Made by a program: the position numbers and the translations under genes
Notes under the pieces: model-generated
Databases searched by the model: none
Told to the model about the DNA's origin: nothing
What the model saw: the letters and a program-made list of their open reading frames with translations, nothing else
In this document: positions 7,467-12,550 of the stretch, one piece after another
Layout: each line of letters begins with the position of its first letter
Position numbering within the stretch: position 1 is the first letter of the stretch
Source of the DNA: Streptomyces sp. JH34
Lineage (GTDB): Bacteria > Actinomycetota > Actinomycetes > Streptomycetales > Streptomycetaceae
Assembly: GCF_029428875.1 (NCBI RefSeq)
Contig: NZ_JAJSOO010000001.1
Span: 310,001 to 374,000, forward strand
Direction: 5' to 3'
DNA: 64,000 nt

Positions 7467-9338
7467 GTGAGAGCACGTCGCACGCCCAGATGGGCCGCCT
7501 CAGCACTCGTCACCGTCCTCGCGTCGACCGGGCTCCTCGCCGGCCCCGCGGCCGCCTCCGGGTCCGCCGCGGCACCGGGCCGCCAGGTGGCCACCACGAC
7601 CGACCCGGTCACCCATCAGGAGAACGACCGCGTCCCCGAGGGCTCGCTCTGGACGCAGCACTACTTCCCGTCCTCGGACCGCTCCGGCACCGAACTGCAC
7701 GCAGACGTGCTGCTGCCCGAGGGTCTGCCGAGGAAGGCCGAGGTCCCCGTCATCCTGTCCGTCGGCCCGTACTTCGGGCACTCCGGACAGTCCGGCGCCG
7801 AGGGCTGGACCCACACCGGTCCCTCCGCCCGGTTCCAGGACTTCATCGAGGGCACCGACCTGTTCGACCAGGGCTACGCCTTCGTGATGGTCGACCTGCG
7901 CGGCTTCGGCGGGTCCACCGGTTGCCTGGACTGGGGCGGCCCCGGTGAACAGGCGGACGTGAAGGCGGCGATCGACTGGGCGGCGAAACAGCCCTGGTCC
8001 ACGGGTGCGGTGGGCCTGTACGGCAAGTCCTACGACGCCCTGACGGGCCTCATCGGCAACAACCTGGACCAGCGTGCGCTGAAGGCCGTCGTCGCCCAGG
8101 AGCCCGTCTGGGACATGTACCAGTACATCTACTCCAACGGCGTGCCGCGCCCGAACGTCACCGGCACCGCCAATGCCTACAACTCCATCGCCACGCTGGA
8201 CCAGCTGCCCGACGACGACGCCCGCTACCTGGCCAACTCCCGTTACGAGGAGGCCCATCCCGAGTGCCTGACACAGAACTCGGCCGGTTACCGGATCGCC
8301 GACCAGGACGACCCGTTCTGGACCTCCCGGGACCTGGCGAAGGCGGCAAGGGGCACGGACACCCCGCTCTTCGTGACCCAGGGCTTCATCGAGAACAACA
8401 CCAAGCCCGAGGAGATGCAGGAGTACCTCGACAACCACAAGGGCCCCGAACGCGGCTGGGTCGGCCAGTGGGAACACGTCCGCGGCGGGGACCGCACCGC
8501 CGACGGCCGCCTCTCCATGGGGCGTGAGGGCTGGTACGACGAGACCCTCTCCTTCTACGACCAGTATCTCAAGGGCATCAGGCCGGCTGTGCGCTACCCG
8601 GCCTACTCCGTCGAGGACTCCACCGGCGCGTGGCGGGCGCAGAAGACCTGGCCCGTCGTGGAGCGCTCCGTCACGCTTGCCCTCGGCGGCGGCTCGTACG
8701 TGGACGACGGCGGCCTCTCCTCGGTCACCGGCCTGGTCGGGCCGGACGGGCCGGCGCCCCGGGAGCGTGTGCGGCCCACCGGCGAATGGGACCTGGAGAA
8801 CGCGCCCGCGACCGACCCGGCCGCACCGGAGGGCCTGGCTGAGAAGCAGGCCCTGCTCCAGCGGTCCGGAGCCGTCACGTCGAGCTTCGTCGTGTGGTCC
8901 GAGGCGCTCGAGAAGGCCGTGCGGGTCACCGGCACACCCCGGATCTCCCTGGCAGCGAAGGGAGAGGGCAACGTGATGCTCAAGCTGTACGACGTCGCCC
9001 CGGACGGCACGGCCGTCATGTTCGACGAGCAGGTCTCGCTGCTGAGGACGGGCAAGCTCTCCGTCGATCTGAAGGCGACCGACTGGACCTTGGCTGCCGG
9101 GCACGTCCTGGCGGTGGAGATCGGGTCCGTCCGGACCGGCTCGTGGCGTGACACTCCTTCCGGCGAGACGATCCGGGTCGAGGGAGCACGGCTCGGGCTC
9201 GCCCTGGACGACCCGGCCGACGACGTCGCCACCCAAGGGGCCCGCTCGCCGTATCTGGACACCTATCTGCGCCAGTACACGGTGCCCCTGCCGGCAGGTC
9301 CCGGCACGTTCACGGTGGTACCCGGCGGACGTCTCTGA
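7467..9338 (+). CDS. Secreted CocE/NonD-family hydrolase (X-Pro dipeptidyl-peptidase-like)
   Basis: 623 residues from the GTG at 7467, which follows a GGGAG ribosome-binding site; a longer frame exists upstream but would bury the signal peptide. Residues 1-31 (VRARR then a hydrophobic stretch and AAA) are a secretory signal. The alpha/beta-hydrolase domain carries the oxyanion-side VDLRGFGGS segment and the nucleophile motif GLYGKSYD with Ser178. A late WEHVRG supplies the candidate catalytic His. The last ~220 residues form the beta-sandwich C-terminal domain of the S15/CocE family. It would hydrolyse an ester or X-Pro peptide bond outside the cell. The substrate is not identifiable. Confidence 0.9.
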   Translation: MRARRTPRWAASALVTVLASTGLLAGPAAASGSAAAPGRQVATTTDPVTHQENDRVPEGSLWTQHYFPSSDRSGTELHADVLLPEGLPRKAEVPVILSVGPYFGHSGQSGAEGWTHTGPSARFQDFIEGTDLFDQGYAFVMVDLRGFGGSTGCLDWGGPGEQADVKAAIDWAAKQPWSTGAVGLYGKSYDALTGLIGNNLDQRALKAVVAQEPVWDMYQYIYSNGVPRPNVTGTANAYNSIATLDQLPDDDARYLANSRYEEAHPECLTQNSAGYRIADQDDPFWTSRDLAKAARGTDTPLFVTQGFIENNTKPEEMQEYLDNHKGPERGWVGQWEHVRGGDRTADGRLSMGREGWYDETLSFYDQYLKGIRPAVRYPAYSVEDSTGAWRAQKTWPVVERSVTLALGGGSYVDDGGLSSVTGLVGPDGPAPRERVRPTGEWDLENAPATDPAAPEGLAEKQALLQRSGAVTSSFVVWSEALEKAVRVTGTPRISLAAKGEGNVMLKLYDVAPDGTAVMFDEQVSLLRTGKLSVDLKATDWTLAAGHVLAVEIGSVRTGSWRDTPSGETIRVEGARLGLALDDPADDVATQGARSPYLDTYLRQYTVPLPAGPGTFTVVPGGRL

Positions 9339-9365
9339 CGCTCGCTCGGGCCGGCGTCGCACGAC

Positions 9366-9395
9366 GGGGTTCCCGGACCGCACCCGGGAATCCCG
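9366..9395 (+). terminator. Candidate terminator after the secreted hydrolase
   Basis: An imperfect hairpin with a perfect inner TTCCCGG/CCGGGAA stem, extended outward by GGG/CCC after one bulge, lies about 30 bp past the stop. No U-tract. Confidence 0.45.
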
Positions 9396-9512
9396 CCCGG
9401 CACCGGCCCACGCACGCGCGTCACGTGCGCGGGCCGGCCGCACGCGCGCGCCGGGACGCGTCCCCTCCGGGCGCTGCCGGTCTCACCTGCTGACATTCCT
9501 GCCCTCCAGGGC

Positions 9513-9542
9513 TTGAGCCGACCGGTGCCCCTCCCCCACAAT
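9513..9542 (+). promoter_or_regulatory. Candidate promoter of the leader peptide-ssuD transcript
   Basis: TTGAGC (9513-9518) and CACAAT (9537-9542) are 18 bp apart. The predicted start of transcription falls at or beside the ATG at 9550, so the leader ORF below would be translated from a leaderless message. Confidence 0.45.
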
Positions 9543-9549
9543 GCTCGGC

Positions 9550-9630
9550 ATGACCGCCGCTGCCGACTTCCTCGTGGGGCGCCTGCACGTCGACCTGTGT
9601 CGCCAGTCCAGCGCGACCTGTCGCCGCTGA
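9550..9630 (+). CDS. Putative Cys-containing leader peptide of a sulfur gene (HVDLxRxxSAxC type)
   Basis: A 26-codon ORF (29 codons if the in-frame ATG at 9541 is used) ending RLHVDLCRQSSATCRR. The HVDL-C/L-R-xxSA-x-C block is the hallmark of short actinobacterial leader peptides found before cysteine and organosulfur genes. Here it precedes an alkanesulfonate monooxygenase gene by 213 bp. There is no ribosome-binding site before the ATG, and the promoter hexamers place the transcript start on it, so translation is probably leaderless. Its role would be to sense Cys-tRNA or cysteine supply by ribosome stalling at the two TGT codons; that mechanism is inferred from the family, not shown here. 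Confidence 0.65.
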   Translation: MTAAADFLVGRLHVDLCRQSSATCRR

Positions 9631-9767
9631 CGCCTGCCGGACCCCTGGAGCCGTGGGCCACCTGCCCCGGCTCCCCGCGCATCGGCACTCCCGCCCGGCA
9701 CCGTACGACGCCGTGACTCCCTTCCCTTCCCACGTGTCCCCGCATGTCCCGGCACGCACCTGACCGT

Positions 9768-9806
9768 ATGCCGCGGGGCCCCTGCGGCATGCCCCGTCCG
9801 GCATGC
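9768..9806 (+). promoter_or_regulatory. Overlapping hairpins between leader peptide and ssuD
   Basis: ATGCCGC (9768-9774) pairs with GCGGCAT (9784-9790) around a GGGGCCCC core. GCATGCC (9787-9793) pairs with GGCATGC (9800-9806). The two stems share bases 9787-9790, so they cannot form together. This is the geometry expected of an attenuator; which state blocks expression is unknown. Confidence 0.4.
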
Positions 9807-9843
9807 AGACACACCGTCCTCCGCACCCCTCCGGAGCTCTCGT

Positions 9844-10995
9844 ATGTCCGCACTCACCTTTCATTGGTTCCTGCCCACCACCGGTGACAGCCGGCACATC
9901 GTCGGCGGAGGCCACGGTTCGACGCCCGGCGCCGCCGGCGGGGACCGTCCGGCCTCCGTCGAGTACCTCGGACAGATCGCCCGCACAGCCGAGCAGCTCG
10001 GCTTCGTCGGCGCGCTCACCCCGACGGGCGCGTGGTGCGAGGACGCCTGGCTGACCACGGCCATGCTCACCCAGGTCACCGAGCGGCTGAAGTTCCTGGT
10101 CGCCTTCCGCCCCGGCCAGATCAGCCCGACGCTGTCGGCACAGATGGCGGCGACCTACCAGCGGCAGTCCCACGGACGTCTGCTGCTCAACGTCGTCACA
10201 GGAGGCGAGTCCGCCGAACAGCGCGCGTACGGCGACTTCCTCGACAAGGACCAGCGGTACGCCCGGACCGGGGAGTTCCTGGGCATCGTGCGGCGGCTGT
10301 GGGCCGGTGAGACGGTCGACCACCACGGTGAGCATCTGCGCGTGGAGGCCGCCCGGCTGAACCGGCTGCCGGAGCCCGCGCCGCAGATCTACTTCGGCGG
10401 GTCCTCCCCGGCGGCCGGCGACGTGGCGGCCCGTCACACCGATGTCTACCTGACCTGGGGGGAGCCGCCGCAGCAGGTGAAGCAGAAGATCGACTGGGTG
10501 CGCTCGCTGGCCGCGGCGCAGGGTCGCGACGTACGGTTCGGGATCCGCCTGCACACCGTCACCAGGGACACCGCGGCACAGGCCTGGGCCGAAGCGGAGC
10601 GGCTCCTGGAGGCCATGGACCCGGAACGCGTCGCGGCGGTGCAACGGGGCCTGGCGACCAGTGAGTCCGAGGGGCAGCGGCGGATGCGCGAGCTGCACAA
10701 CAGCGGGGAGACCGGCAACCTCGAGGTCTACCCCAACCTGTGGGCGGGCGTCGGCCTGGTCCGCGGGGGCGCGGGCACGGCGATGGTCGGCAGCCACACC
10801 GAGGTCGCCGACCTCATCGAGGAGTACCACCGGATCGGCATCGACGAGTTCGTCCTGTCGGGGGCGCCCCATCTGGAGGAGGCGTACTGGTTCGGCGAGG
10901 GCGTCCTGCCGCTGCTGGAGAAGCGCGGTCTCTGGCAGCATCCGGCCCGTCCGCGTCCCGTCGAGGCGGGAACCGCCCGGCTCGCCGGCCGGTGA
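9844..10995 (+). CDS. ssuD: FMNH2-dependent alkanesulfonate monooxygenase-like (SsuD family)
   Basis: 383 residues, a bacterial luciferase-like flavin monooxygenase. The N-terminus LTFHWFLPTTGDSRHIVGGGH and the block LLLNVVTGGESAEQRAYGD with LGIVRRLW are diagnostic of SsuD/SfnG-type desulfonating enzymes. They cleave alkanesulfonates or sulfones to sulfite plus aldehyde using FMNH2 from a partner reductase. No reductase or SsuABC transporter is adjacent, so FMNH2 and substrate must come from elsewhere. The Cys-containing leader peptide upstream supports control by sulfur status. A dimethylsulfone monooxygenase is an alternative. Confidence 0.85.
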   Translation: MSALTFHWFLPTTGDSRHIVGGGHGSTPGAAGGDRPASVEYLGQIARTAEQLGFVGALTPTGAWCEDAWLTTAMLTQVTERLKFLVAFRPGQISPTLSAQMAATYQRQSHGRLLLNVVTGGESAEQRAYGDFLDKDQRYARTGEFLGIVRRLWAGETVDHHGEHLRVEAARLNRLPEPAPQIYFGGSSPAAGDVAARHTDVYLTWGEPPQQVKQKIDWVRSLAAAQGRDVRFGIRLHTVTRDTAAQAWAEAERLLEAMDPERVAAVQRGLATSESEGQRRMRELHNSGETGNLEVYPNLWAGVGLVRGGAGTAMVGSHTEVADLIEEYHRIGIDEFVLSGAPHLEEAYWFGEGVLPLLEKRGLWQHPARPRPVEAGTARLAGR

Positions 10996-11077
10996 AGGGC
11001 GCCCCCGTGCCCACCGAGTCACGTCCCGGCGGCCCGGAACCCGGGCGGGATGCCACGGTCCCCGGCGGCTGAGGACC

Positions 11078-11340
11078 GTGGTGCTCGCGAGCCTGCTCGG
11101 CACCACGGCGGCTTGGTTACGACTTCTTCCTCTACAGCACGGCGGCCGGACACCTCGGAGACCGCATCGGCCGGCAGCACACCCTGGCCTTCACCATGGG
11201 GCTGATGGGCGTGTTCATCTCCCGCACCGGCCTGTTGCCCACCCACCAGCAGGCCGGTGTCCTCGCCCCGGCGCTCCTCCTGGTGCTGCGTGTCGCGCAG
11301 GGCGTGGCACGACGCGGACCCGTTCGGTACCCGCTACGGC
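11078..11340 (+). pseudogene. Remnant of an MFS transporter (metabolite:H+ symporter type)
   Basis: VVLASLLGTTA in one frame is followed, after a frameshift, by GYDFFLYSTAAGHLGDRIGR and then GLMGVFISRTGLLPTHQQAG and LLLVLRVAQGV. These are the first transmembrane segment, the loop 2-3 DRIGR motif and helices 3-4 of the MHS family. Most of helix 2 is deleted and everything after helix 4 is missing. It is a decayed fragment directly downstream of ssuD, perhaps once its uptake partner. Confidence 0.7.
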
Positions 11341-11368
11341 AAGCGCCCGTGCGGGGACTCACCTGTGG

Positions 11369-11400
11369 GTGGGGGACGGCCGGGGCCGGCCGTCCCCCAC
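11369..11400 (-). terminator. Terminator, probably bidirectional
   Basis: A perfect 13-bp stem (gtgggggacggcc / ggccgtcccccac) with a 6-nt loop, 35 bp beyond the stop of the leftward AI-2E family gene. It can also end transcripts from the ssuD side. Confidence 0.75.
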
Positions 11401-11434
11401 GCTCGACGAAGCGGACCGGGAGTGCCGGCACGCT

Positions 11435-12550
11435 TCACGAAGGGGCACCGACACGGCTGGGTGACGTCTGGGGCTCCGGCTCCTCCCCCGGTTCGCTGAG
11501 CTGCTCGCGCACGTAGTTCCAGACGACGGCGATCAGCGCGGCGGCGGGCACCGCGAGCAGGCTGCCGACGATGCCCGCCAGACTGCCGCCCAGCGTCACC
11601 GCCAGCAGGACCACAGCGGCATGCAGACCGAGCCCTCGGCTCTGGATCATGGGCTGGAACACGTTGCCCTCGAGTTGCTGGACCACCACGATGACCGCCA
11701 GCACGATCAGCGCGTCGGTCAGCCCGTTCGACACCAGGGCGATGAGGACGGCGACGAAGCCCGCGAACAGCGCACCCACGATGGGCACGAACGCGGAGAC
11801 GAACGTCAGCACGGCCAGGGGCAGCACCAGCGGCACTCCCACGATCCAGAGTCCGAGACCGATGAGGACGGCGTCGAGCAGTCCGACGTAGGCCTGGGAA
11901 CGCACGAATTCACCCAGGGTGCTCCAGCCACGCTCCGCCACGGCGGGAACATCGGTGGCGAGCCGGCCGGGCAGCTGACGCCCGAGCCACGGCAGGAACC
12001 GGGGTCCGTCCTTCAGCATGAAGAACATGAGGAAGACCGCCAGGACAGCGGTGACCACACCGTTGACCACGGTGCTCACCCCGGTGACGACCGTGGTGAC
12101 CATGCTGCCGATGCTGTCCTGGACGCGCGCAGTAGCGGAATCGAATGCTCCGGTGATCTCGTCGTCACCGATGTTGAGAGGCGGCCCGGAGGCCCACTCG
12201 CGCAGCCTCTGGATGCCTTCGACCACACCATCGGCCAGTTCCCCGGACTGGGAAGCCACCGGCACCGCGATCAACGCCACCGCCCCTCCGGCCACCAGGA
12301 GGAACAGCACCGTCACCGTGGAGGCGGCGAGCGCCGGCGGCCATCCGCGCCGACGCAGGAAGCGGGCCAGTGGCCACGTCAGGGTCGTGAGCAGCAGACC
12401 GACTATGAGTGGCCAGACGACCGGCCACATGCGCCCCAGCAACCACACCGCCACTGCGGTCATGACAAGGACCAGGAGCAACTCGCCTGAGACGCGTGCC
12501 GAAACGCGGAGAGCCGCGCGGGTCTTGGTGGAGCTCATCGTGACTGACAT
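11435..12550 (-). CDS. AI-2E family transporter (PerM/YdiK-like membrane protein)
   Basis: 371 residues from the ATG at 12550, preceded by AGGGTG; an upstream in-frame ATG would add 26 arginine-rich residues without a ribosome-binding site. The protein has about eight hydrophobic spans, two near the N-terminus (LLLVLVMTAVAVWLLG, VVWPLIVGLLLTTLTWPLA) and a cluster at the C-terminus. A central domain contains the family's MFFMLKDGPRF segment. A PIVGALFAG stretch precedes the last helices. Members range from autoinducer-2 exporters to Na+/H+ antiporters. The role here is unknown, and nothing nearby points to quorum sensing. The C-terminal EPGEEPEPQTSPSR tail is hydrophilic. Confidence 0.88.
   Translation of the reverse strand: MSVTMSSTKTRAALRVSARVSGELLLVLVMTAVAVWLLGRMWPVVWPLIVGLLLTTLTWPLARFLRRRGWPPALAASTVTVLFLLVAGGAVALIAVPVASQSGELADGVVEGIQRLREWASGPPLNIGDDEITGAFDSATARVQDSIGSMVTTVVTGVSTVVNGVVTAVLAVFLMFFMLKDGPRFLPWLGRQLPGRLATDVPAVAERGWSTLGEFVRSQAYVGLLDAVLIGLGLWIVGVPLVLPLAVLTFVSAFVPIVGALFAGFVAVLIALVSNGLTDALIVLAVIVVVQQLEGNVFQPMIQSRGLGLHAAVVLLAVTLGGSLAGIVGSLLAVPAAALIAVVWNYVREQLSEPGEEPEPQTSPSRVGAPS

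Follow-up and report, generated by a model that had tools for sequence, protein, structure and literature searches.

An NF042934 leader peptide with a near-invariant UGU codon upstream of an ssuD-like gene in Streptomyces: a candidate sensor of cysteine shortage

INTRODUCTION

The usual view of leader-peptide attenuators is that codons for the sensed amino acid are all that they require. For cysteine, responsive polycysteine leaderless attenuators are known from Mycobacterium smegmatis (Canestrari 2020, via PMC13236596, PMC9094748, and PMC9031893, as excerpted), and excerpts of one of these reports use the term translation attenuation (PMC13236596). Like the locus described here, which lies in a 64,000-nucleotide stretch of Streptomyces sp. 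JH34 DNA (hereafter the window), the M. smegmatis attenuators comprise a short, probably leaderless open reading frame (ORF) with Cys codons in front of sulfur genes. The original 2020 study by Canestrari is said to describe occlusion of the ribosome-binding site (RBS) in these leaders. Based on its name, we infer that the NCBIfam model NF042936 represents the M. smegmatis Ms4527A polycysteine attenuators. The window ORF differs from that Cys-rich leader family: it has two separated Cys residues and no Cys run, and it scores 16.3 bits, under the cut-off of 45. With respect to a second model, NF042934, there is no difference; the window ORF is a full-length member of this family, which carries a name without a stated mechanism.

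Other described systems share some of these features. In mycobacteria, Cys-rich upstream ORFs (uORFs) precede cysA2 and other genes, and ribosome occupancy has been shown according to excerpts of the report (PMC4633059); as described there, these are leaderless small ORFs with Cys codons before a sulfur gene, as in the window, but their Cys codons cluster at the C terminus. For the cys leader peptides of Mycobacterium, P. acnes, and B. longum, the excerpted text of PMC1262725 suggests Rho-dependent control; these leaders resemble the window in having Cys codons and no terminator and differ from it in having runs of Cys codons near the stop, and no Streptomyces cysteine leader was found in that excerpted text. 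The Rhodobacterales uORFC-8-2 cysS leaders, as excerpts of PMC8632094 describe them, likewise have conserved Cys codons in a uORF, but they have an intrinsic terminator, and UGC is dominant in them, whereas the codon of the window's family is UGU. TnaC-type arrest peptides that act with Rho-dependent termination are the subject of PMC10941005, judging from its abstract-level text; they share with the window a fixed spacing between conserved residues and the stall codon, and C-rich RNA after the ORF, whereas in the window the stall is proposed at a sense codon and arrest is putative. Finally, RNA-seq of S. lividans yielded a list of eight leader peptides, among which the excerpts of that report show none of the NF042934 family (PMC8079986).

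RESULTS AND DISCUSSION

The Leader ORF and the Gene That Follows It

An earlier note on this DNA had claimed a 26-codon ORF without an RBS, containing Cys codons, in front of a sulfonate gene that it called ssuD. The ORF is present on the forward strand, from ATG 9550 to TGA 9628-9630, and encodes MTAAADFLVGRLHVDLCRQSSATCRR, with two TGT codons for Cys placed seven codons apart (Table 1). By reading, no Shine-Dalgarno (SD) sequence was seen before ATG 9550 or before an alternative in-frame ATG at 9541, which would make the leader ORF 29 codons long. The peptide is a member of leader-peptide family NF042934 ("putative leader peptide," cis_reg_atten): it matches positions 1 to 19 of the 19-position profile with an E value of 1.9e-9, and its score exceeds the cut-off of 27 bits.

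The leader lies between a CocE/NonD hydrolase gene, which ends at 9338, and the SsuD-like gene, in a host genome of 7.29 Mb; the closest SsuD relatives in a named collection come from Streptomyces. The protein that is presumably regulated is SsuD-like, as the earlier note had it, but scores below the NCBIfam SsuD cut-offs (448 versus 518 bits for TIGR03565, and 458 versus 510), so that the name ssuD is a likely rather than an exact one.

The closest SsuD relative found (93%) belongs to locus L096, which is also the only compared relative that aligns across the whole gap between leader and ssuD. Identity to L096 is 52/70 in the promoter stretch, 78/81 in the leader ORF, 16/19 in the 20 nt just after the leader stop, and 58/109 with 8 gaps in the middle of the gap; it is 28/39 in the stem stretch, 21/37 in the RBS region, and 53/60 in the first 60 nt of ssuD. 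Taken with the E value of the family match, the identity within the ORF, in contrast to the middle of the gap, sets the leader above chance.

Table 1. Features of the leader-ssuD region of the window (positions within the window)
Feature	Position	Strand	Remarks
GTCTCACCTGCTGA block, possible transcription-factor operator	9480..9493	+	Same sequence in L096 and L017; L099 differs at one base
Promoter-like hexamers TTGAGC-18-CACAAT	9513..9542	+	Same spacing in L096, L099, and L017
Leader peptide ORF MTAAADFLVGRLHVDLCRQSSATCRR	9550..9630	+	NF042934, 36.9 bits; 78/81 bases identical in L096
TGT for the first Cys (+4 counted from His); nonconserved codon	9598..9600	+	In the genus, TGC 48 : TGT 3
Proposed sensor codon: TGT for the conserved Cys (+11 counted from His)	9619..9621	+	In the genus, TGT in 138/138
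C-rich, G-poor gap, possible Rho loading region	9631..9767	+	C 26-32 and G 12-18 per 60-nt window
First stem, ATGCCGC/GCGGCAT (9768-9774/9784-9790)	9768..9790	+	Present; chosen in predicted fold of the window
Second stem, GCATGCC/GGCATGC (9787-9793/9800-9806)	9787..9806	+	Present
Small hairpin CTCCG-8-CGGAG holding the ssuD Shine-Dalgarno GGAG (9833-9836)	9819..9836	+	Predicted in the window and L096
SsuD-like FMN-dependent alkanesulfonate monooxygenase gene, presumed regulated gene	9844..10995	+	PF00296 (Bac_luciferase), 244.7 bits

Among ten SsuD loci that are 88 to 100% alike (window included), of which at most nine are independent because L016 and L100 have the same sequence over 2.65 kb, a leader lies no more than 1.5 kb upstream in six. 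At L016, L097, L098, and L100, ssuD is immediately preceded by another gene, and at L016 a leader is found 4.55 kb upstream.

Promoter and Upstream Block

The hexamers in front of the leader (TTGAGC at 9513-9518, an 18-nt spacer, CACAAT at 9537-9542, and then 7 nt to ATG 9550) share 8 of 12 bases with the consensus, which is under the threshold of the promoter scanner, and a consensus promoter scan around the leader returned 0 sites. L096 has identical hexamers and spacing; in L099 and L017 the spacing is kept and the hexamers are changed. Based on this arrangement, the RNA probably starts at about 9549-9550, on the leader ATG. The earlier suggestion of a transcript that begins with the start codon is thus consistent with the spacing and its recurrence in relatives, but the promoter is a weak one that the scan missed. 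Across the family, a TA...T element occurs 5 to 9 nt before the candidate start in 34% of 160 leaders versus 6% of control positions. Together, a weak promoter that places the start on the ATG and the enrichment of this element make leaderless translation of the leader ORF plausible.

Further upstream, the GTCTCACCTGCTGA block may be the operator of a local regulator. Position 9480-9493 holds its sole exact copy in the host genome, and allowing up to two mismatches yields 85 genome matches versus 54 for a backward control, a modest excess. As a regulon-wide operator the block was rejected, since only two others of the 214 leader loci scanned have a copy even when three mismatches are allowed.

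Family Spread and Target Genes

NF042934 is a widespread family. Every one of 61 sampled genomes of the genus has a match over the cut-off, with 3 to 16 matches each (E 0.01). In a sample of the class searched at E 0.001, the family is present in 171 of 246 genomes (over the cut-off in 151) and 72 of 103 genera, and in a sample of the phylum it is present in 10 of 149 genomes (over the cut-off in 7). The 14 control genomes gave no NF042934 match in the genus, class, and phylum searches; at a loose E of 10, 10 of the 14 match, none of them over the cut-off. The host genome itself has 14 places at E 10, of which nine are below 0.01 and five over the cut-off.

Target genes were assigned by clustering the proteins downstream of 161 leader loci and identifying one or two representatives per cluster. 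On this basis the leaders mostly precede sulfur genes: cysteine synthase (36 loci), cysteine dioxygenase (35), sulfatase (15), FMN monooxygenase of the NtaA/DmoA kind (14), nitrite/sulfite reductase (13), SsuD and related monooxygenases (9), rhodanese-type sulfurtransferase (8), and SsuA-type binding proteins (7). The other 24 loci fall into clusters of 1 to 3, which include an SDF symporter, oligopeptide-type binding proteins, an ABC permease, a flavin reductase, and a 2OG-Fe oxygenase, for which a link to sulfur is at most putative. A family scan of L176 gave no match; the scanned coordinates do not fit the L176 ORF. Thus, the proposal of a conserved leader with Cys codons before a sulfonate gene finds a curated family and many sulfur-gene neighbors on its side. 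NF042934 leaders probably sense cysteine shortage.

Could the leader peptide instead act in trans, as a small protein? Conservation of its amino acids would be expected of such a protein, but the 3 to 16 matches per genome stand mostly beside sulfur genes, the constraint described below is at the level of a codon, and the distance from the start codon varies; we find this reading hard to credit at all.

A subclass with the sequence RVHMDLxRYAGCxC and similar ones (L002, L126, L142, L165, L166, L169, and others) precedes cysteine dioxygenase. At the start of the downstream gene, both the cysteine dioxygenase group and the LLM monooxygenase group carry a conserved AGGA...CGTGTC block; it is predicted to form a hairpin, and unconserved sequence sets it apart from the leader.

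One Synonymous Codon Is Kept at a Set Distance from the Peptide Motif

To compare leaders, the His (or Ala) of the RxHVDLxR motif was numbered 0, which places the conserved Cys at +11. In the first set, 162 of 164 loci fit this register, and of 143 distinct leaders, 141 have Cys at +11, encoded by TGT in 140. Within the genus, 138 of 141 distinct leaders have Cys at +11, and the codon is TGT in all 138; outside the genus, Cys is found at +11 in 84 of 86 distinct leaders, and TGT encodes it in 82 of these. Over all sets, 253 of 261 fetched loci share this register, and their codons for His, Asp, Arg, and Leu vary synonymously. These 253 rows represent 250 distinct regions, as a few places were fetched twice, and at +11 they have TGT in 243, TGC in 2 (L162 and L322), and no Cys in 5, among them L163, L319, and L331. 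L333 was counted among the leaders that lack Cys, although its placement is clearly wrong. The misfits to the register that were left out are L138 and L226 (of 164), L284, L311, L314, L328, and L336 (of 57), and L398 (of 40). In L275 (G067:C1:1355000-1356191), a TGA stop replaces the conserved TGT (RRHIDLLRVCSAI*), and Cys is found at +7.

The other frequent Cys position, +4, shows the opposite preference, with TGC in 48 leaders versus TGT in 3 in the genus and 35 versus 2 outside it. Nearly all family members examined have TGC or no Cys at +4; the window, with TGT, is one of the exceptions within the genus. Stalling on both TGT codons of the window had been proposed earlier, but of the two only the second (9619) is conserved as TGT, and the first (9598) is not. 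In the downstream genes TGC is preferred as well (207 versus 16 TGT), and in leaders outside the genus that carry Cys runs, the other Cys codons of the run vary between TGC and TGT.

A Fisher test of +11 against +4 gives 1e-41 in the genus and 1e-25 outside it, for sequences that are related; since the leaders are related by descent, a test on a tree carries more weight. A leader lies on the same strand within 5 kb upstream in 60 of 80 SsuD loci, 74 of which have at least 4.5 kb of upstream sequence, and the +11 Cys codon is TGT in all 60. On the SsuD tree of these 60 leaders, the third base of this codon changes 0 times, versus 16 changes for His, 12 for Arg +5, 7 for Asp, and 6 for Arg -2, counts that rest on one quick tree. 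Synonymous drift is thus frequent in leader ORFs and absent at one codon. Opposite-strand matches to the leader pattern number four among the 80 SsuD loci, all from Saccharopolyspora and all with TGT; at these loci (L022, L028, L032, and L059) the match is a second one beside the ssuD-proximal leader, and it perhaps heads a divergent operon.

Both the profile and the pattern work on protein and so should not favor TGT, but the register is partly imposed, since the profile favors ungapped members and the pattern fixes the spacing. The loci were fetched from the best-scoring part of the match lists, so that weaker members are under-sampled. A preference for AGC at the conserved Ser (+8) was ascribed to Ser/Gly exchange and set aside as an RNA signal.

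The almost constant use of UGU at a fixed spacing from the peptide motif appears to be a new feature of the family. The literature, searched by abstracts and excerpts, gave no sign of an earlier report, which is a weak kind of absence, and a UGU bias may be present in Canestrari 2020 itself.

Wobble Decoding as an Account of UGU

Why would UGU be kept and UGC be avoided? When ARAGORN was run on all 71 tRNA hits of the host genome, it called 70, including two tRNA-Cys, both with anticodon GCA; the one uncalled hit resembles a Gly tRNA by eye. With GCA as the only tRNA-Cys anticodon, UGU is read by G:U wobble. Since one anticodon reads both UGU and UGC, charging alone cannot favor UGU, and slow wobble decoding must be assumed; such slow decoding is our preferred account of the retention of UGU. 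Against it, the other G:U-wobble codons CAT and GAT occur freely in these leaders. In S. coelicolor, according to excerpts of the report, G34:U wobble gives inefficient reading of GAU, for which a regulatory role has been proposed (PMC9262613). Elf and Ehrenberg argued in an abstract that the choice among synonymous codons must be a particular one if an attenuator is to be sensitive (PMC1183508). The argument from differently charged isoacceptors would be inapplicable where one anticodon reads both codons.

The two tRNA-Cys loops differ, one having A36A37A38 and the other A36A37C38. The A36A37A38 motif presumably marks a substrate of MiaA/MiaB, and a MiaB gene is present in the host genome. 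A tRNA-Asp with anticodon ATC is also found there (L376, G000:C1 near 1256231); according to excerpts of PMC9262613, a tRNA of this kind is present in 0.7% of Streptomyces sequence libraries.

It is also conceivable, though decidedly improbable, that the constraint on the U of UGU lies in the RNA, through pairing or the binding of a protein, and that decoding has no part in it. Only a constraint at the nucleotide level tells UGU from UGC, a pyrimidine follows UGU in 84 of 92 non-redundant leaders, and in five fold windows this U pairs slightly more than nearby U's. The excess is small (pairing with A 0.23-0.36 versus 0.19-0.30), and pairing of the uridine was rejected as a sufficient reason for conservation; moreover, the one specific partner, A(-26) of the Asp codon, reaches only 0.018, and beyond the second base after the codon the positional signal is weak (0.27-0.32 bits).

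Stems, Gap, and RNA Folding

In the earlier note, two mutually exclusive hairpins between leader and ssuD were to be switched by ribosomes stalled at the TGT codons. Both stems exist as claimed and have GCAT 9787-9790 in common; in addition, 9632-9642 could pair with 9796-9806 at 10 of 11 positions, and the identity of the stem stretch to L096 is above that of the middle of the gap. This similarity does not extend to the structure itself: no counterpart of the first stem was seen in the L096 alignment or fold, and at the place of the second stem L096 has a different hairpin, GGCCATGCCC-TGAA-GGGCGTGGCC. A repeat search found 10 inverted repeats in this 330-nt GC-rich stretch, and on this count the pair of stems does not stand out from chance expectation. 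Position also argues against a switch. Both stems start more than 130 nt past the leader stop, and a ribosome paused at 9619 would cover the RNA to roughly 9635, which puts 9768-9806 beyond its reach. A scan of 9340-9900 for intrinsic terminators found 0 terminator-like sites, and masking the stalled ribosome in the fold model left pairing of the ssuD SD unchanged, at 0.00 before and 0.00 after. Thus, the stems stood up to scrutiny and the switch did not, and selection between them by stalling at TGT is in our view highly improbable.

Related mechanisms were rejected on similar grounds. A classical trp-type attenuator would call for a terminator, which was not found, and for conserved alternative stems within reach of the ribosome, whereas here both are out of reach and the first has no counterpart in L096. 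Unmasking of the SD by a stalled ribosome was modeled for eight leader-ssuD regions and changed the SD by at most 0.04, the row of L032 being unreliable since its start is one codon off. A riboswitch was set aside, as 9300-9900 has no Rfam match up to an E of 5. The small hairpin that holds the ssuD SD has arms of the same sequence in the window and L096 and so offers no covariation. Across five paralogue groups, no conserved RNA linking the leader to the gene start was found outside the leaders, with the exception of the gene-start hairpin of the cysteine dioxygenase and LLM monooxygenase groups.

The 60 nt after 92 non-redundant leaders have C at 0.465 and G at 0.281, versus 0.369 and 0.322 in 130 other upstream regions (C minus G, p 5e-14). 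This control is imperfect, as promoters fall within it and its positions are counted from the gene rather than from a leader. In being C-rich and G-poor, the RNA after the leaders resembles Rho loading sites.

A Proposed Mechanism

Based on the observations above, we posit, with a confidence slightly better than even, that the leader is a cis-acting NF042934 peptide in which a wobble-read UGU, in register with the nascent peptide, reports the supply of Cys-tRNA and raises ssuD. In this model, the RNA would start at the leader ATG, and ribosomes would load on it directly. The ribosome would make R-L-H-V-D-L-C-R-Q-S-S-A-T and then meet the UGU at 9619-9621, where it would pause when Cys-tRNA is short. 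Because the conserved stretch is kept at a fixed distance from UGU, we suggest that the pause is caused or reinforced by this stretch, which lies 2 to 13 residues upstream and would by then occupy the exit tunnel. By what route would the paused ribosome raise ssuD? At the end of the leader, it could keep Rho off the C-rich gap; alternatively, it could keep the leader RNA from folding onto downstream RNA. In either case, a shortage of cysteine would increase the use of sulfonates.

The fixed spacing between conserved residues and one codon, together with free choice among synonyms at other positions, would also fit an arrest peptide that binds cysteine or another sulfur metabolite in the ribosome tunnel, much as TnaC binds tryptophan there and arrests translation. 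The Cys codon would then be a stall site and not a gauge of charging. A signal of high cysteine would fit the cysteine dioxygenase targets; as this enzyme degrades cysteine, its control has the wrong sign under a plain starvation switch. By itself, however, arrest by a metabolite gives no reason for UGU specifically, and the relatives with Cys runs outside the genus fit sensing of Cys-tRNA better. We consider such an arrest peptide unlikely.

Sensing of Cys-tRNA at a wobble-read codon, the reading preferred above, can be extended to the whole class. We speculate, with some doubt, that the leaders are an old sensor in which the RxHVDLxR nascent peptide programs a pause at the UGU exactly 11 residues downstream, wobble making this codon the slowest gauge of tRNA-Cys. 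This would hold within the relatives that carry Cys runs as well, and UGU would gauge the charging of tRNA-Cys and possibly also its sulfur-dependent thiomethylation at A37. If this is true, the architecture of each leader would set the sign of control, so that biosynthetic genes and cysteine dioxygenase could share one sensor, and a GC-rich soil group that produces antibiotics could coordinate its sulfur genes through ribosomes alone. A synonymous codon kept almost without exception across dozens of genera, at one distance from a conserved peptide, points to a role for the peptide as well as for the wobble position, and a change of a single base, from TGT to TGC, makes the idea of a sensor codon directly testable.

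Beyond the presumed target gene, the window has a further feature. Directly after ssuD, at about 11069-11464, interrupted fragments resemble, by reading, the start of an MFS transporter, and L096 and L017 have a long open frame of about 490 to 500 codons at this place.
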